IMG/VR virus record: IMGVR_UViG_3300045911_000047
Span: 1-53,671 of that record
Source of the DNA: a virus
Length of the DNA: 53,671 nucleotides
Strand: one strand, 5' to 3'
In this document: positions 241-53,634 of the stretch, piece after piece
Layout of the letters: every line of letters begins with the position of its first letter
Position numbering within the stretch: the first letter of the stretch is position 1
Program-made: the position numbers and the translations under genes
Notes under the pieces: generated by a model
Told to the model about the DNA's origin: nothing
What the model saw: only the letters and a program-made list of their open reading frames with translations
Databases searched by the model: none

Positions 241-260
241 TTAAACCAAGGAACTAAAAC

Positions 261-1694
261 ATGACAGATACCGAAAGACTGTATTTAATCAATGATAGAT
301 CCAATGAATTAATTGATCTAGGCCTCTATAAACTTCACGGCAATTATATATATAATGAGAAATTACAAGAAATCTGCAATAAATTAAATATAATGAATCC
401 TACCTATATAAGATTACAAAAGTATGATCTACACGAATTATCAGTACTGATGAATTATAACCAGAGAATGCGATTAGTGAATCATTTCACAAATTGCCGA
501 AATTCAGGATCATTTAAAAGATACCATCACTGCGGAGAATACCTTAGCCAAGATCATTTTAATCAATCTAATATCTGCAATGATTGCATTGAAGAAGACT
601 ATGTATGTTGCTTTACATGCTCCCAAAGCATCACAATCGATACTGCATCACTAGTAAATAATCGATATTACTGCGAGGAATGCTTTTCTGAACATTTTGT
701 TTACTGTTGTAACTGCAACGATCCGATAGACATATCTAATTCAATCTACCAAAATGATGATTATTGGTGCGACATATGCTTCAATGAATCCTTTACACAA
801 TGCGAGCATTGCGAAAATTATCATTATTATGATTCCGAATGTCCCCATTGCGACAAATACTCGCTATTACCATATAACGCAAAGATAAGCGACATTTTGC
901 ACAAAGAACGATATAACGAAACATGTTTCGGTTTGGAAATTGAATTAAATATTGATGAAAAAGACAATCTTCAATATGCGATACGATATACAAAAGATCA
1001 TATAAGTATACCTCATATATGGAAGCAAGACGGATCCTTATCTAATGGCGGCGAATTAGTACTTGCTCCATGCGATAGAGAGCGGCTATCCAGTCTTAAT
1101 TGGCGAACAATACTAAAAGATTTACGTAATTTAGGTTGTCGCGGCTACGACTCAGGCGAGTGCGGAATCCACATCCACGTCTCAAAAACTGAATTCAATC
1201 ATCTATCATCTGATGAATTCAACGCACTGATCCTTGATTTTTTACTATCTCAAAGACCGTTTCTAAAGCCATTCTCACAACGTAAAAAATTCAATTATTG
1301 CGAATTGCCTGAAGACTTTTGTGATATTCAATGGCTTTTAAACTCACGATACCGAGCTATAAACGTATTGCCAACAAATACCTATGAATTCCGAATATAT
1401 CGGAGCACTACTGATTACCAACGCTTCTATGCATCATTACAATTTACTTTCCTAGCTCATAAGTATTTAGTTTACCAAGCTAGAAATAAAACCAGTAATC
1501 TACATCTAAAAGACTATTTGCTACAAAATAAAAATGAGCATAAGCCAATTTTCGACTACCTAATAAAATCTGATTTAATAAATTTATTAGATCGAAATTT
1601 TACAAGAAATCATTTTAATATTGAAAGGAAGAAATACTATGTGCGTTATATTTCATACCACCAACAAAGCAATGCTCAAACACTCAGAGCTTGA
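261..1694 (+). CDS. Zinc-cluster amidoligase (COOH-NH2 ligase, Amidoligase_2-like)
   Basis: Predicted ATP-dependent amide-bond ligase of the glutamine-synthetase/GCS fold, which joins a carboxylate to an amine. Residues 91-197 carry a run of CxxC pairs (CNDC, CFTC, CEEC, CCNC, CDIC, CEHC, CPHC), a multi-zinc treble-clef or LIM-like region. The ligase part follows: FGLEIEL at 223-229, DGSLSNGGELVLAP at 257-270, CGIHIHVSK at 301-309, RYRAIN at 363-368 and YEFRIYRST at 375-383. These match the acidic strand, DGSL/G-E, HxHV and E-F-R motifs of the amidoligase_2 family. The 3' end overlaps the glutamine amidotransferase gene, a pairing known in phages. The substrate is unknown; small metabolites, peptides or cell-wall peptides are possible. 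The zinc region may bind a protein or nucleic-acid partner. Confidence 0.8.
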   Translation: MTDTERLYLINDRSNELIDLGLYKLHGNYIYNEKLQEICNKLNIMNPTYIRLQKYDLHELSVLMNYNQRMRLVNHFTNCRNSGSFKRYHHCGEYLSQDHFNQSNICNDCIEEDYVCCFTCSQSITIDTASLVNNRYYCEECFSEHFVYCCNCNDPIDISNSIYQNDDYWCDICFNESFTQCEHCENYHYYDSECPHCDKYSLLPYNAKISDILHKERYNETCFGLEIELNIDEKDNLQYAIRYTKDHISIPHIWKQDGSLSNGGELVLAPCDRERLSSLNWRTILKDLRNLGCRGYDSGECGIHIHVSKTEFNHLSSDEFNALILDFLLSQRPFLKPFSQRKKFNYCELPEDFCDIQWLLNSRYRAINVLPTNTYEFRIYRSTTDYQRFYASLQFTFLAHKYLVYQARNKTSNLHLKDYLLQNKNEHKPIFDYLIKSDLINLLDRNFTRNHFNIERKKYYVRYISYHQQSNAQTLRA

Positions 1695-2214
1695 ATCAAT
1701 GTATTATAGCAATCCCGACGGTATCGGACTTGCGGTTAGATTCAACAAGCATTGGGAAATCCTAAAAGGATTAGTAGATGCTTCAGATCTAAAATATCTA
1801 TATAAAGATCTACAATCCGCCAACGAGATAGTAGGTCATTTTAGACTTGCAACGCACGGAGCAATATCCAATGAGAATTGTCATCCGTTTGCAATCTCTG
1901 AGTGTATGGATACTGCCTCTAAGTGTGAATCCATAGACTTAGGCGTACTGTTCCACAACGGCGTTATCCAAGGGTTCGGCAATAAAGATGTTTCGGATAC
2001 CCTACATTTTACGACATCAGTATTAGCTAAGTGTAGGGATTCTATTCCAAACATACTGCAAGCTACCAATGGCAAATTCGTATACATCTCACCTGATGGG
2101 AAAGTGCATAGGTTTGGCTTGATCGAGCTTAGAAAGGATCTGTGGGTATCAAATACCTATTGGAATCCCAATTATGATTTAGATTTCATACATTGGGATA
2201 AGAAATGTGTATAA
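1639..2214 (+). CDS. Class II glutamine amidotransferase (Ntn hydrolase, 191 aa)
   Basis: Predicted to hydrolyse glutamine and deliver ammonia, or to form or cleave an amide, using an N-terminal cysteine. The start at ATG 1639 is chosen because it gives Met-Cys: removal of Met exposes Cys2, the required nucleophile. An upstream in-frame TTG at 1621 would bury that Cys. A GAAAGGAAG ribosome site lies just upstream. Conserved class II motifs are visible: GHFRLATHG at 66-74 (family GHxRxATHG), NENCHPF at 78-84 and LFHNGVI at 104-110 (family HNG). It is short, a bare GATase domain without a synthetase partner domain. It overlaps the amidoligase gene by 56 bases, which suggests coupled translation and joint function. 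Confidence 0.87.
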   Translation: MCVIFHTTNKAMLKHSELESMYYSNPDGIGLAVRFNKHWEILKGLVDASDLKYLYKDLQSANEIVGHFRLATHGAISNENCHPFAISECMDTASKCESIDLGVLFHNGVIQGFGNKDVSDTLHFTTSVLAKCRDSIPNILQATNGKFVYISPDGKVHRFGLIELRKDLWVSNTYWNPNYDLDFIHWDKKCV

Positions 2215-14135: not shown

Positions 14136-14151
14136 TAGAAGATTTAATAAG
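14136..14151. repeat. Cassette repeat R1, shortened copy 2
   Basis: TAGAAGATTTAATAAG here is identical to 15229-15244. Upstream bases (AGCTAGGGCTAAT) look like a shortened form of the AGCTAAAGGGGTTCT found in the two longer copies. The TTA at 14144-14146 is the stop codon of the first leftward methyltransferase. Confidence 0.8.
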
Positions 14152-15145
14152 GTGAATGTTTCTTTGCACGTATTAAGATACGGGTATATTTTTCAACACC
14201 ATTTATGAGTGGTCTTCCATGTGGAGTACCCTTATATCTTATACCTATATTTTCTTCGCCTGTATTCATAATTCCAAGTAACTCAAACTGTTCGGGATTG
14301 TATTTATTGATGAAGGTGATAGGTACGCCCATAACGCCATCATAATCTATTGGAATATCTGTGGTCTTAGAGACTTCTATTGCATCATAATTATCATATC
14401 TTGGGTACTTTTCAGGGATATATTTTTTATGAAGTATTAAATAATTCTGATAGCGTGTTTTGTAATCTAGGTTCGTAAACCATCTTACACCATTAACCGA
14501 AACATACTTATTGCCTTCATTATCAGTTCGATAGTTACTAGTCTTTAGTTGATAATCATTTGATATTCTAAATTCTAAAGTGCCGCTACGAATACTTGCA
14601 CCAAGCCACATTTTGTTTTCTTTAATATATTTGAAAACTTCTTTACATATTATTGCGTTTTGATTCCCTAAGATTAAAAACTTTTTCTCATATCTCATTA
14701 GTTGAGCAACATATTCCCTAAATAACGAGAATGGAGGATTAGTTACTACAATATCAGCTTGTTTTAATAACTCTATGCACTCTTCACTTCTAAAATCTCC
14801 ATCACCGTGAAGAAAGGTAGAAACGTTTTTATTATGTCTTAATAGCTCTATAACATCATCTTTAATAGGTTCTAATACTTCATTTATTTCAACCCTCTTT
14901 GGGGTTGAATGATAGTTTGTAACTATAAGTTTCTTTAGTCCTAGTTTGTTAAAATTTAAAGTGAAGTACTTAAAGAAATTACTCTCATACGGATCATCGC
15001 AGTTACAATAAACTATTTTGTCATAAAACTGGTCTTCATAGTGTGCTAACTCTTTCTCAATATCACTTAATTGAGTATAAAACTCATCTTTCTTGGCTTT
15101 CCTTGCATTGACTAATTTTCTATTTGATAGTTTTGTCATAGCCAT
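14144..15145 (-). CDS. Adenine-specific DNA methyltransferase, EcoRI-methylase family
   Basis: A 333-residue N6-adenine methyltransferase. DEFYTQ at 20-25, CNCDDP at 47-52, LGLKKLIVTNY, GDGDFRS at 114-120 and the catalytic NPPF at 136-139 match the M.EcoRI-type family. No restriction partner is nearby, and GAATTC sites remain in the genome (for example 1191, 1215, 1386, 53338, 53413), so if it has EcoRI-like specificity it would protect them; the specificity is not proven. It runs against its neighbours, has no clear Shine-Dalgarno site, and is bounded by repeats shared with the next methyltransferase, so it was probably acquired as a cassette. Confidence 0.9.
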   Translation of the reverse strand: MAMTKLSNRKLVNARKAKKDEFYTQLSDIEKELAHYEDQFYDKIVYCNCDDPYESNFFKYFTLNFNKLGLKKLIVTNYHSTPKRVEINEVLEPIKDDVIELLRHNKNVSTFLHGDGDFRSEECIELLKQADIVVTNPPFSLFREYVAQLMRYEKKFLILGNQNAIICKEVFKYIKENKMWLGASIRSGTLEFRISNDYQLKTSNYRTDNEGNKYVSVNGVRWFTNLDYKTRYQNYLILHKKYIPEKYPRYDNYDAIEVSKTTDIPIDYDGVMGVPITFINKYNPEQFELLGIMNTGEENIGIRYKGTPHGRPLINGVEKYTRILIRAKKHSPY

Positions 15146-15206: not shown

Positions 15207-15248
15207 GAAAGAGCTAAAGGGGTTCTCCTAGAAGATTTAATAAGATGA
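15183..15248 (+). pseudogene. Chimeric remnant joining two neighbouring genes
   Basis: A 21-codon frame whose first 8 codons (MPVDNIDE) copy the start of the phospholipase-like gene at 16373 and whose remaining codons (ERAKGVLLEDLI) copy the end of the heptapeptide-repeat gene. This is exactly the junction expected if a unit running from the 3' end of the repeat-protein gene to the 5' end of the phospholipase gene was duplicated in tandem. It keeps a GGAG ribosome site, so it may still be translated, but it is most simply a recombination scar. Confidence 0.75.
15210..15242. repeat. Cassette repeat R1, copy 3
   Basis: Matches 13984-14016 at 32 of 33 positions. The TTA at 15237-15239 is the stop codon of the second leftward methyltransferase, the same position within the repeat as in copy 2. 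Confidence 0.85.
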
Positions 15249-16343
15249 TTTCTTAAGAAGCCAAAGCAATTCTTTAACTTTTATATCTCTATTGCGTAAG
15301 TTTCTTGAACCACGATAGGTATTATAATCCTGCTCCATTAGTTCCCATGTTCCGTATTTGGAAAGGATTTTCTTAAATACCTCAATCGGTATAATACCTT
15401 CATCATTGTAAGATATAACTATAAACCTTGCTTGTGTGTCAGCTAAAAGCTGATCCATGGCTTCCTGAGCTTCCTTTCGTTTGTTGTACGCAGATCTATT
15501 CCATTCTTTTGCTATCCCACTTATGCCATCTTGTATCTCTACAGGCTTACCGCTGTTGATAATATTGAGCATAAAGTAATTAGATCCATATGGGTGCTGA
15601 TTATAGGGCGGATCGTAATAGGCTAGATCGAATACAGGTAATTTTGGATCTTTTACTAATTGGTTTATATCTTGTTTATAGATATAAACTGGACATTCGA
15701 AATCAGACAATTCTGGCATCTCAAGCTCAATTTCTTTTTTAATTCGCTCCAAAGCATTTTCGCCACGCCCACCAAAATGTCCAACACCATTTCGTTTGTG
15801 AAATCCCTTGAAGACTCCAGATGTATTAGTGTGAATTGATGCTTTTACTAAGAGTGAAGCAAGGCAAAAATGTCTGTACTCTTTCGGCACTTTTTCAATC
15901 AATCTACGAAGATTATCTATAATTTTTGCGTTAATGTTCGTATAAAAAACTCTTTCTCCCGGCTGAACATTATTATCGTCTTTTGGAGCATAATTTGTCT
16001 CGATAAACCCCGGGGCGTCTGTTCCTTTTAGTTTGTTCTTATTAAGCCAGTCTATGTATTTCTTTAATTGCTCTAGGTTCACTTCAGATTTATTTGCAAG
16101 ATAAGCACGATTCAAGGTCTCTGCATAATCCTTTAGGTCGTTTACATGAAGCTCTTTAGCAAATATCTTTAGAAGCCTAGAAACCGCACCGCTTCCTGCA
16201 AAGCCGTCAAACACAATTAGTTTTTCCTTATTAAGATTTTCCCTGACCCTAAGGAAACCTTTGTATAGAAAGGGAATTAGTTTCCGTTTATTTCCAATAT
16301 AGGTGATTAACTGTGAGGTTAGGTTAATATTATATTTTATCAT
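15237..16343 (-). CDS. DNA adenine methyltransferase, D12/Dam class
   Basis: A 368-residue N6-adenine methyltransferase. The order is motif X-like YIGNKRKL at 15-22, AdoMet-binding GFAGSG at 47-52, and catalytic DPPY at 244-247 followed by YGSNYF. This alpha-class arrangement matches D12 methyltransferases; the region between holds the target recognition part. It is not related in sequence to the EcoRI-type enzyme next to it, yet both end on the same TTA inside repeat R1 and both begin at repeat R2. There is no restriction gene and no obvious ribosome site. Likely role: protecting phage DNA from host restriction. Confidence 0.92.
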   Translation of the reverse strand: MIKYNINLTSQLITYIGNKRKLIPFLYKGFLRVRENLNKEKLIVFDGFAGSGAVSRLLKIFAKELHVNDLKDYAETLNRAYLANKSEVNLEQLKKYIDWLNKNKLKGTDAPGFIETNYAPKDDNNVQPGERVFYTNINAKIIDNLRRLIEKVPKEYRHFCLASLLVKASIHTNTSGVFKGFHKRNGVGHFGGRGENALERIKKEIELEMPELSDFECPVYIYKQDINQLVKDPKLPVFDLAYYDPPYNQHPYGSNYFMLNIINSGKPVEIQDGISGIAKEWNRSAYNKRKEAQEAMDQLLADTQARFIVISYNDEGIIPIEVFKKILSKYGTWELMEQDYNTYRGSRNLRNRDIKVKELLWLLKKSSY

Positions 16344-49735: not shown

Positions 49736-50310
49736 TTAACCTTTGCCCAACAAAAATCAGGAAACTTATCATTATATTGTTTATCTTTTGTAACATTTCC
49801 ATTCCATATCTTAACACGAAGGGGGCATGTGCAAACAGCACAAGTCCCTAGGCGCTCGTCTACCTCGGTAGAACGGCCTCCAAGAGAATGGTACGCTATC
49901 TCATTTGACCACTTTTCAAAGGCATTACGATCCTCTGGGAAGGTATTGTTTGGACAGGATAGGCAAATCTCGGCTCTCCTCATAGCCACTTCCTTTGTTG
50001 CATATGAGTTAAAGGCCATATTCCATAGGAGAGTTATTCCTCCTTTTAGATATCCCATAAGCCCTCTTGGAGGGGTGTAAGGCACGCAATTACCTCGATT
50101 CTCAGGCAAGGTGCAAAGATAGTTTTCTATTACGTCTGGTAGATTTTCAATCTCTTCTAGATTATTTTGTTTTCTATAATTTCGAACCTTCATCTCAAGT
50201 TCTAATCTTGTCTTTGCATGGAATAAATGCTGGGTGTCAGGATCTATAAATTTTAATTTACGAGGGCCTACAAACGGTTTAAACTTATAAAGAATCATGT
50301 CAATTCTCAT
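49732..50310 (-). CDS. Zinc-binding protein next to portal (192 aa)
   Basis: A 192-residue protein with two Cys pairs near the C-terminus: CLSCPNN and GTCAVCTCPLRVKIW, plus a final FCW, which fits a zinc-ribbon. The N-terminal half is helical with basic patches. Two starts are possible, 50310 or 50298; the latter's ATG overlaps the divergent terminase ATG. Its conserved place beside the portal suggests a role at the packaging vertex. Confidence 0.7.
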   Translation of the reverse strand: MRIDMILYKFKPFVGPRKLKFIDPDTQHLFHAKTRLELEMKVRNYRKQNNLEEIENLPDVIENYLCTLPENRGNCVPYTPPRGLMGYLKGGITLLWNMAFNSYATKEVAMRRAEICLSCPNNTFPEDRNAFEKWSNEIAYHSLGGRSTEVDERLGTCAVCTCPLRVKIWNGNVTKDKQYNDKFPDFCWAKVK

Positions 50311-52171
50311 TGAAAAAGAAGGGTGGGAAGAAATAGAGGAAGACGATAAAAGATATATTATCGCTTATGGCCAAAAGTTCCCCTATTGTCACCCTCTTAG
50401 TATTCACCTAAAACTTTACAAAGAAAATACAAATCCTGTCCAGAAGTTATTTCACTTAAAGAGTGCTCATGACTACCTTTGGCCAGACACTATATGGCAT
50501 TATTGGACAGAAGAGAGATTCCGTGCACATTGTGAGGGTAGGAATTATATAGTTCTTGCTGGGGGTGCTAGTACTGGAAAAAGCTTTTCTGCGGCACAGC
50601 TAGCGTTATTATTCTGGCTTGCATCCCCTCAAACAAGAGCGGTGATCGTAGCAAGCACAACATTAGAGAGTTTAAATAGCAGGATATGGGGGTACGTTAT
50701 AAGCCTATTAAAAACAGCCAAGATCAGGCTCCCTGTGATATATACAAAATCCCCAAATCAAAAAATTCTTTACGATGATGGTCAAAAGAAACAGGGGAAC
50801 CTTAGAGATACAATCCATGGAATGTTCGCAATCGCGGCTAAGAAAGGAGATGATGATGAGGCTATAAGCTCTTGGATTGGTCGACACCCAAAGGAAGGTT
50901 TGATGCTGGTACTCGATGAGGCAACCGATATGCCTCTTAGTATCATGAAAGCGTTACCTAACTTAGAAGCAAAATCAGACATATTTCAATGTATTGCAAT
51001 AGGAAACAGCCTTAGTAGATTTGACCTACATGGCACCTTGGCTACCCCTAAAGCTGGTTGGGATTCCATAGACCCAATGAAAGATAAGCAGTGGGAAACT
51101 ACACAAAGGAACGGAATCTGTCTTTTCTCTAGTTGTTACGATAGTCCAGCAATTCATGAGACAGACCCAGAAAGAAAGAAGAAGTTAAGTAAGTTCCTAG
51201 TTACACAAGAAGAAATAGAAGCAAAGAAAAAAGAGTTTGGAGAAGATTCTGATTCTTTCTTTCGATTTGTGCTTGGATTTTGGCGCAAAACATCCTCTGT
51301 TGAGGTTGTCATAGATCCTGATTACATAGACCGTTTTAGGGTACGAGAGGGTGTTTATTGGAGCGGTCTATACCCTTTAACATTGATTGGTGGGCTAGAT
51401 CCAAGCTTTAGTAGTGGTGGAGACGATTGCATACTCAGATTAGCCTATCTAGGAGTTGCTTCTAACGGGAAAGTGGTATTGGACTATCAAGGAGATAGAT
51501 TCCTATACAGGATACCAATCATAGCAAGTAGCCCGAAAGCACCTGAATTGCAGATTATCGATAGTGTCATAGATATAATGCGAGCTGAGGGGCTAGACAT
51601 TCGCTACCTTGCTATAGATTCCTCTGGGGCAGGGCGTATGCTAGGGGAGACCTTAAAACTTCGATTAGGGACTAATTACACGCCAGTAAAGATACTTACT
51701 GGTTACTATGGGGGAAAAGTCAAACAGCATGATCATGAGTGGGTTACAAAAGATGCTTATAATCTTTGGACTGATTTTCGTCCGTTCATAGAGCGAGAGC
51801 AAATTAAAGGACTTGATAGTACATCAATATTTCAACTAACCCATAGACTTACTTTTGTTAATGTAAAGACAGGTAAGATGACCTTGGAGTTAAAGCACGA
51901 ATACAAACGACGTATTGGGGCTATAATCAGAAACCAAGCAAAAAGCCCAGATGAAGCTGATGCTGCTGCGTTGACGTTACAAGCAGCTATATTAAGGGCA
52001 GGGTTTGTCCCAGGAGCTACGATGAACATTAATGTTGACCTAGATTGGATGCAACAAAAGTTAGCTGCATTAAAGCCACAAGAATCTGAGAAAAAAGTTG
52101 AGAAACCAGAGCTAAAAGCAACCTTTACTGGAGATATTCACGACCTGAATTTTCGGAGGTTTTTCTGGTAA
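50297..52171 (+). CDS. terL: Large terminase subunit
   Basis: A 624-residue DNA-packaging motor. Walker A GGASTGKS at 89-96 and Walker B VLDEAT at 205-210 form the ATPase; the RNase H-like nuclease has D368 (GGLDPSFSSGGDD), D441 (YLAIDSSGAG) and D near 555 (PDEADAAALT). All key residues are present. Unusually, the gene is on the opposite strand to the rest of the late block. Its start lies inside the N-terminal end of the leftward zinc-protein gene, and its stop overlaps the 52125 gene by 47 bases. It cuts concatemers and pumps DNA through the portal. Confidence 0.93.
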   Translation: MSILIEKEGWEEIEEDDKRYIIAYGQKFPYCHPLSIHLKLYKENTNPVQKLFHLKSAHDYLWPDTIWHYWTEERFRAHCEGRNYIVLAGGASTGKSFSAAQLALLFWLASPQTRAVIVASTTLESLNSRIWGYVISLLKTAKIRLPVIYTKSPNQKILYDDGQKKQGNLRDTIHGMFAIAAKKGDDDEAISSWIGRHPKEGLMLVLDEATDMPLSIMKALPNLEAKSDIFQCIAIGNSLSRFDLHGTLATPKAGWDSIDPMKDKQWETTQRNGICLFSSCYDSPAIHETDPERKKKLSKFLVTQEEIEAKKKEFGEDSDSFFRFVLGFWRKTSSVEVVIDPDYIDRFRVREGVYWSGLYPLTLIGGLDPSFSSGGDDCILRLAYLGVASNGKVVLDYQGDRFLYRIPIIASSPKAPELQIIDSVIDIMRAEGLDIRYLAIDSSGAGRMLGETLKLRLGTNYTPVKILTGYYGGKVKQHDHEWVTKDAYNLWTDFRPFIEREQIKGLDSTSIFQLTHRLTFVNVKTGKMTLELKHEYKRRIGAIIRNQAKSPDEADAAALTLQAAILRAGFVPGATMNINVDLDWMQQKLAALKPQESEKKVEKPELKATFTGDIHDLNFRRFFW

Positions 52172-53229: not shown

Positions 53230-53634
53230 ATGGCAAAAACAAGACTATCAACAATTAAGATTGAACTACTACATCGAGACTATAATATCATTCGAGAGTA
53301 CTGTAATAATGATACCTATGATAGATTTCAATGGTTAGAATTCAGTAAAAACCACAATTACATCACTGCATACTGCTCGTACTCAGAGAAGCGTAAGTAT
53401 CCGCATATTCGAGAATTCGGGAGAATCTACTATTATAACACGCCATATAATTTAATTCGAATCCGATCAATTCCGTGTTTTAAATCATGGCAATGTATAC
53501 TCTCATTCGGAACGAATGAAATTAAATTTCTTCCCGACGGATCGGCTACGATATCTAGTATACAAGGATCATATACGCATATACCAAAAACCGATATAAA
53601 ACTCAATCCTGACCAAGTATGGCTACTTTGGTAG
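53230..53634 (+). CDS. Hypothetical early protein (134 aa), paralogue of gene at 2233
   Basis: The first early rightward gene. GAGGAG lies five bases upstream of ATG. The product MAKTRLSTIKIELLHRD is basic and tyrosine-rich; residues 85-115 (KSWQCILSFGTNEIKFLPDG, then SATIS) match the same region of the 233-aa protein at 2233. It precedes the 75-aa gene that crosses the contig ends. Function unknown; duplicated early proteins often counter host functions. Confidence 0.75.
   Translation: MAKTRLSTIKIELLHRDYNIIREYCNNDTYDRFQWLEFSKNHNYITAYCSYSEKRKYPHIREFGRIYYYNTPYNLIRIRSIPCFKSWQCILSFGTNEIKFLPDGSATISSIQGSYTHIPKTDIKLNPDQVWLLW

Follow-up and report, generated by a model that had tools for sequence, protein, structure and literature searches.

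The window analysed here is the whole of IMG/VR virus record IMGVR_UViG_3300045911_000047, 53,671 nt in length. Close to its first position lie two plus-strand genes, P0001 and P0002, which encode a putative ligase with a cysteine-rich front end and a putative class II glutaminase, respectively. The ORF list opens the second gene at TTG 1621. This start was rejected, as homology places it at ATG 1639, giving a protein that begins MCVIF with a cysteine as second residue and leaving a gene overlap of 56 nt. An earlier sequence-only reading had described an amidoligase gene whose 3' end overlaps a Cys2 class II amidotransferase gene, and this arrangement is confirmed. The features of the locus are collected in Table 1.

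Table 1. Positions of the ligase and glutaminase genes, their motifs and the nearby terminase gene in the window
Feature	Position (nt)	Strand	Basis
Shine-Dalgarno-like AAGGA ahead of the ligase ATG	248..252	+	read from sequence, inferred
Ligase gene, zinc-finger front end and Amidoligase_2 core (P0001, 477 aa, ATG)	261..1694	+	ORF, profiles, predicted structure
LIM-like zinc-finger array, residues 106-197, seven CxxC pairs in units of ~32 residues	576..851	+	CxxC count, predicted structure, family profile
Predicted glutamine-synthetase-like ligase core, residues 217-441	909..1583	+	structure superposition and Pfam
FGLEIEL with ExE motif (G224, E226, E228), residues 223-229	927..947	+	conservation
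HIHV (H304, H306), residues 304-307	1170..1181	+	hhalign with E. coli GlnA HCH (weak) and YbdK HVH
EFRIYRS (E376, R378), residues 376-382	1386..1406	+	hhalign with E. coli GlnA EVR (weak match)
AAAGGAAG, ribosome-binding-like, ahead of ATG 1639 and inside the ligase gene	1624..1631	+	read from sequence, inferred
Predicted class II glutamine amidotransferase (glutaminase) gene (P0002, 191 aa)	1639..2214	+	homology, predicted structure
Cys2 codon, putative N-terminal nucleophile	1642..1644	+	alignment column
HFRLATHG, putative glutamine-binding motif (R69)	1837..1860	+	conservation; aligned with GlmS RWATHG
HNG, putative oxyanion motif (N107, G108)	1954..1962	+	conservation; aligned with GlmS HNG
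Terminase large subunit	50297-52171		phrog_2 match, E = 4.4e-9

Besides FGLEIEL, HIHV and EFRIYRS, the ligase carries DGSL (residues 257-260) and GELV (residues 264-267), which completes the set of motifs on which the 477-aa protein had been read as an amidoligase. The core (residues 221-477) matches Amidoligase_2 (PF12224) with 23.1 bits, above the Pfam cut-off of 22; the whole protein scores just under it (20.8 bits, E = 3.8e-4). PHROG 16683 is matched at E = 3.3e-17, and 61 of the 66 members of the family alignment match Amidoligase_2 at E ≤ 0.01. A structure was predicted from an alignment of 66 sequences (mean pLDDT 78.8). In ten-residue blocks, the pLDDT is 90-98 over residues 111-180, lower after 180, and 91-98 across most of 221-440 with dips to 73-83 at 291-300 and 341-360, while residues 1-110 are poorly predicted.

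The predicted core has the glutamine synthetase fold. Residues 217-441 superpose best on glutamine synthetase 8xlj_A (Z 11.2, rmsd 3.8, 185 residues aligned), 211 of 998 chains reach Z ≥ 8, and YbdK is superposed with Z 10.3 and rmsd 4.1 over 205 residues. The structural comparison proposed with the earlier reading has therefore come out in favor of a ligase fold. Foldseek alone returned no PDB match at E ≤ 0.001 (best E = 1e-2). At the profile level, hhalign against E. coli GlnA gave a weak match (E = 0.029, probability 1.7) that lays HIH over HCH and EFR over EVR, and against YbdK it aligned 29 columns around HVH (E = 7.6e-5). Among the distinct aligned ligase sequences, E226 and E228 (223/223), D257 (226/226), H304 (227/227) and both E376 and R378 (226/226 each) are invariant. 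The ExE, E, HxH and ExR catalytic motifs of the glutamine synthetase/GCS fold are thus present, with the GlnA alignment being weak. We take E226 and E228 to be metal ligands, and the four motifs together presumably correspond to the metal and ATP ligands of glutamine synthetase.

Seven CxxC pairs precede the core (residues 106, 117, 138, 149, 170, 181 and 194), as the earlier reading had noted, and none of 10,000 shuffles of the 217-residue front reached this number (mean 1.6, maximum 6). The ligase family profile retrieves LIM proteins in the PDB (best 1.5e-5), and eight of the 66 family members match Pfam LIM (PF00412) at E ≤ 0.01, others matching RING or zinc-ribbon models. The front end of the window ligase alone has no Pfam LIM match and a best PDB LIM match of E = 0.078; several LIM structures are listed by Foldseek with the ligase model, all at E > 0.01. 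In classical LIM domains, a linker of 2 residues connects the two zinc modules. The modules of the front end follow CxxC-x17-CxxC as in LIM, but their linkers count 7 residues. Because of these longer linkers, and because the window protein stays below significance, the front end is graded LIM-like only, and so are those of most relatives sampled. Among the structural relatives, one phage entry in UniProt bears the name 'LIM domain containing protein'; a literature search combining LIM domain, bacteriophage and amidoligase, with subscription journals mostly outside its coverage, returned nothing. When phage, viral and window ligases were clustered at 70% identity, 74 of the 112 clusters had at least three CxxC ahead of the core, five had two and 33 had none. 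This zinc share is biased upward, since zinc fronts were present in two of the three seeds used to find ligases. That the zinc domain may be the target-binding part, as first suggested from the sequence, is plausible.

The partner protein is a predicted class II glutaminase with the GlmS/EgtC fold. Its family-level scores fall under the respective cut-offs for GATase_4 (18.6 bits against 23, E = 9.5e-4) and GATase_6 (15.6 bits against 27), and the match to GlmS model PRK00331 (E = 6.2e-8) lies far below the cut-off of that model. The partner family profile retrieves GlmS at 9e-13. In an alignment of partner residues 1-114 with E. coli GlmS (4.7e-10), the MC, R(x)ATHG and HNG motifs coincide. 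The predicted model (mean pLDDT 91.1) adopts an Ntn-hydrolase fold, matches the GlmS glutaminase at E = 2e-6 and superposes equally well on EgtC (Z 12.6, rmsd 3.5, 159 aligned) and GlmS (Z 12.4, rmsd 3.6, 161 aligned). Both enzyme classes given in the earlier reading are consequently upheld by predicted folds.

All class II signatures (Cys2, HxRxxThG, HNG and Asp) are present in the window partner. The Cys2 column holds cysteine in 127/127 aligned partner sequences, 88 of 215 rows not being aligned there, and of 238 partner ORFs, 235 have MC ahead of the HxR motif. The three others comprise one VC, one ORF cut by a contig end and L004, whose annotated protein begins MC and which is a failure of the pattern rather than a true absence. 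R69 (213/213 distinct aligned sequences), N107 and G108 (212/212 each) are invariant. H73 is histidine in 52% of the aligned sequences, and Asp120 is aspartate in 61% of the automatic alignment, a value that probably reflects misalignment of one subgroup.

The contig termini share an exact 27-nt direct repeat, which suggests that the genome is probably a circle cut open at an arbitrary position. Across the contig join, the gene for the terminase large subunit ends ~1.7 kb upstream of the ligase gene. The stretch between the two holds two small ORFs on the minus strand and two on the plus strand (53230-53634 and 13-240). The placement of the pair among the first early genes, from which rapid action on the host had been argued, does not hold, since the circle is probably opened arbitrarily and the terminase lies just upstream. 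A T7-type terminase is also the representative, as named by Pfam, of the commonest neighbor family, found in 23 of 104 representative viral or phage loci. Single-protein scans of viral contigs with P0001, P0002, the terminase and the DNA polymerase yielded no near relatives of this phage: all DNA polymerase matches were below 60% identity, and tblastn with the terminase matched none of the phage records. The pair is flanked by two paralogue-like proteins (2233-2934 and 53230-53634; 30% identity, E = 7e-9 in a single comparison). The former has no match at E ≤ 0.05 in Pfam, PHROGs or NCBIfam, and the latter, scanned against PHROGs only, has none there. Elsewhere on the minus strand, the product of 15237-16343 strongly matches a DNA methyltransferase PHROG (9e-44), and the adjoining ORF 14144-15145 has a weak, partial match of the same kind (3e-6).

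To see how far the two genes occur together, loci were collected around ligase relatives (the best 80 of 430 viral ones and the best 80 of 345 genomic ones) and around the best 80 of 97 partner relatives. Ligases with at least three CxxC were called zinc-type, and 2.5 kb on both sides was required for full context. Counts of loci (both genes, geometry, context, resolvase) were not deduplicated, and some contigs occur twice, e.g. L032 and L096. Both genes were found in 70 of the 80 ligase-anchored and 73 of the 80 partner-anchored IMG/VR loci, and in 74 of the 80 loci from bacterial genomes. They lie on the same strand in all 226 loci that hold both, with the ligase first in 209 and the partner first in 17. 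The median gap in ligase-first loci is 3 nt; 58 overlap, 133 are within 30 nt (overlaps included) and 195 within 200 nt. Ligase and partner distances correlate (r = 0.30, 75 pairs), a value reached in none of 2000 permutations. The ligase and glutaminase genes thus form a module, and the amidoligase/amidotransferase pairing recognized from the sequence is found again in many phages and in some gut bacteria.

Zinc-type ligases with full context in the ligase-anchored samples were always accompanied by the partner (43/43 viral, 48/48 genomic), as against 6 of 13 non-zinc ligases. After clustering at 70% identity, which left out 18 clusters without full context, these numbers become 41/41 zinc and 6/8 non-zinc clusters. 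Fingers are not required for pairing, however, because 16 non-zinc clusters stand beside 19 zinc clusters in the partner-anchored sample. Among phage records, 22 of 25 with a ligase match also match the partner (19 mycobacteriophage records, MEP401, MEP402 and MW202733), and in a 23rd, MT839723, a partner ORF adjoins the ligase. The pair, whose absence from related phages would have spoken against it, therefore recurs in distant phages.

Exceptions to the pairing are of several kinds. Clostridioides phage AR1086-1 and Microcoleus phage My-WqHQDG have no partner in the stretch examined. Conversely, 14 of the 36 phage records with a partner match gave no ligase match, and six of these (L010-L015) were inspected. 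On closer look, a ligase is annotated or detected by profile in PV036454, C75C1, Rhizobium N3_19 and MT835576, and a divergent one was found by pattern in MW202828 (the profile missed one divergent ligase, L012, which the pattern caught). In Bifidobacterium phage BP677P8 (L010), neither profile nor pattern revealed a ligase next to the partner match. The ten ligase-anchored viral loci without partner consist of seven non-zinc ligases with full context, from which we conclude that this type works without a partner, and three zinc-type ligases with less than 2.5 kb on one side; in two of these zinc-type loci, L030 and L042, the downstream sequence (5.9 and 3.2 kb, respectively) contains no partner. 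All six genomic loci without partner end within 140 nt of the ligase ORF. Seven partner-anchored loci lack Amidoligase_2. L110 and L149 carry COOH-NH2_lig instead, as does L135 weakly and below the cut-off. The partner lies within 200 nt of a contig end in L102, L156 and L170, with no Amidoligase_2 in ~6 kb upstream in L102 and L170, and no ligase was found in L124.

One of the closest known counterparts is gp105-gp106 of mycobacteriophage Marvin, which shares the gene order, the zinc motifs before the core and the Cys2 partner. Its ligase is 26-27% identical to the window ligase over residues 149-449, but has four CxxC, its partner counts 299 aa, and the genes are separated by a 79-nt gap instead of overlapping. 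In Methylophilales phages MEP401 and MEP402 (Zobellviridae), the genes are adjacent and overlapping and the partner is ~30% identical to that of the window, whereas the ligase has a long N-terminus with only two CxxC. A phiEco32-like COOH-NH2 ligase (PF14395) stands beside the same GAT family in L110 and L149; this ligase family differs from that of the window, though both presumably share the glutamine synthetase fold. The whole L110 COOH-NH2_lig protein (L110:2963-4513), which is encoded beside a related glutaminase, scores above the cut-off for LIM (28.1 against 22.9 bits, E = 2.5e-6), with the score at its C-terminal side and no single stretch passing alone. Glutamine synthetase, the GlmS glutaminase domain and EgtC share fold and active-site residues with the window pair, which differs in that ligase and glutaminase are separate genes and zinc fingers are added.

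Pairs of this kind have been published. According to the accessible text, an amidoligase PF12224 and GATase PF13522 pair occurs in MEP401, MEP402 and over 30 metagenomic genomes (PMC10580990); this paper also relays the Marvin paper as well as the proposal of Iyer et al. 2009 that the phiEco32 genes change the cell wall against superinfection. The earlier attribution of phage amidoligase/GATase pairs to that comparative work agrees with the accessible parts of three later papers that cite it (PMC10580990, PMC11318856, PMC11253131). Phage UFV-P2 (LUZ24-like) is described with COOH-NH2 ligase, Amidoligase_2, GATase, ATP-grasp and AIG2 in one stretch (PMC3890496), and amidoligases are mentioned in further phages and prophages (PMC3517423, PMC10945688, PMC11318856, PMC11253131). 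The accessible portions of PMC10580990, PMC3890496, PMC3517423, PMC10945688, PMC11318856 and PMC11253131 report no enzyme assay or proven substrate. The window pair is a real, functional-looking and divergent new member of this published phage module.

In Clostridia, mostly gut Oscillospiraceae, a same-strand serine resolvase follows the pair within 1.5 kb in 49 of 74 genomic loci (e.g. L237:5513-8591, L252:5509-8588, L253:1853-3986 and L255:5910-8043), compared with such a gene within 1.5 kb of the pair in 6 of 161 phage or viral loci. Copies within one Clostridia genome are alike mainly over the pair, or over the pair plus resolvase, which suggests a small mobile unit. A shared left-end motif of these units was considered and dropped: it occurs at four boundaries, yet in only 5 of 73 loci. 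The type I restriction-modification gene hsdM lies directly downstream of one pair-resolvase unit (L237:8732-10474), and its family is found in 6 of 80 genomic loci. PADLOC has no match for the two window proteins; the L237 Clostridia partner matches an oligonucleotide-cyclase model weakly and in part (E = 1.1e-3).

No third metabolic enzyme is common near the pair in 104 representative loci or in the 253 loci searched. The candidates for such a general component were discarded, as a GGCT-like gene occurs in 6 of 253 loci and a Rhizobium-type ATP-grasp gene in three, the locus of the query included; the search started from three GGCT sequences and a single ATP-grasp sequence and may have overlooked distant forms. 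In L012:5001-6218 and L013:5001-5897, the glutaminase is fused to a gamma-glutamyl cyclotransferase-like (GGCT) domain, and both are annotated as such. In Rhizobium phage N3_19, the ATP-grasp gene lies between ligase and partner. Such neighbors suggest gamma-glutamyl or peptide chemistry for some relatives.

Predicted folds, conserved active-site residues, strict gene pairing and the finger array together form the basis for reading the two genes as subunits of one glutamine-dependent amide synthase, to which we give about even chances of being correct. The small protein would lose Met1, after which Cys2 would hydrolyze glutamine to glutamate and ammonia. The glutamine-synthetase-like core of the large protein would activate a carboxylate using ATP and Mg, and attack by the ammonia would yield a primary amide. 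The LIM-like fingers would hold a protein or peptide ligand, in the simplest case the substrate or possibly the partner subunit. We infer complex formation, ammonia as the acceptor and a protein-type substrate. Since no third metabolic enzyme is common near the pair, two proteins should suffice for the net reaction. It also counts in favor that, where partner-anchored loci lack Amidoligase_2, a different ligase family takes its place in three of seven (one below cut-off). Against it count the absence of any ligase-GAT fusion among the surveyed loci, the non-zinc ligases without partner, the pairing without fingers, loci L030, L042, L102, L170 and L124, and the weak Foldseek, GlnA and LIM matches.

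Two further points weigh against an amide synthase, namely that EgtC matches the partner as well as GlmS does and that GGCT-like or ATP-grasp genes neighbor the pair in some relatives, and rival readings are kept for these reasons. EgtC is a gamma-glutamyl hydrolase; in ergothioneine synthesis, EgtA adds a gamma-glutamyl group and EgtC removes it. By analogy, the ligase could join glutamate or another amino acid to an amine as a temporary handle, with the EgtC-like partner later removing the gamma-glutamyl group. The structural tie with EgtC, the superposition and HVH alignment with YbdK (annotated as a glutamate-cysteine ligase type) and the GGCT-like neighbors or fusions all fit this scheme. 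Adding and removing the group would nevertheless be futile without an intermediate enzyme, and no third metabolic gene is common; we consider it unlikely. It is unlikely, too, that the pair makes an amino acid or small peptide or attaches it to a protein or the cell wall, for which the glutaminase would provide glutamate or an aminated precursor, a reading that later papers, in their accessible text, attribute to Iyer et al. 2009 and phiEco32. The extended UFV-P2 cluster (PMC3890496, accessible text), the N3_19 ATP-grasp gene and the cell-wall peptide idea as relayed in the accessible part of PMC11253131 are consistent with it, but no such extra ligase gene turned up in the window or in most loci surveyed, the search for ATP-grasp having used a single query. 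A mere shift of host nitrogen or glutamine pools, i.e. auxiliary metabolism with no dedicated macromolecular target, is very improbable. Such a role is proposed for genes of phage ZRK32, for which the accessible text reports growth with phage and no gene deletion (PMC10945688), but it leaves unexplained the finger array of most ligase clusters.

Under the preferred reading as a glutamine-dependent amide synthase, candidate benefits to the phage would be amidation of the cell wall against superinfection or modification of a host or phage protein. In its most specific form, which we judge decidedly unlikely, the LIM-like fingers would recruit a specific host or phage protein, the pair would amidate an Asp or Glu side chain or the C-terminus, and the two genes would move together, needing no others, between phages and small resolvase-linked islands of gut Clostridia. 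Discussion of amidoligase/glutaminase pairs in phages goes back to Iyer et al. 2009, as cited in the accessible text of the later papers. The survey narrows the usual system down to a pair of genes, with the partner present for every zinc-type ligase that had full context in the sampled loci. With defined residues (Cys2 in the glutaminase; E226, E228, H304, E376 and R378 in the ligase), the old question of the substrate becomes directly testable by loss of function.
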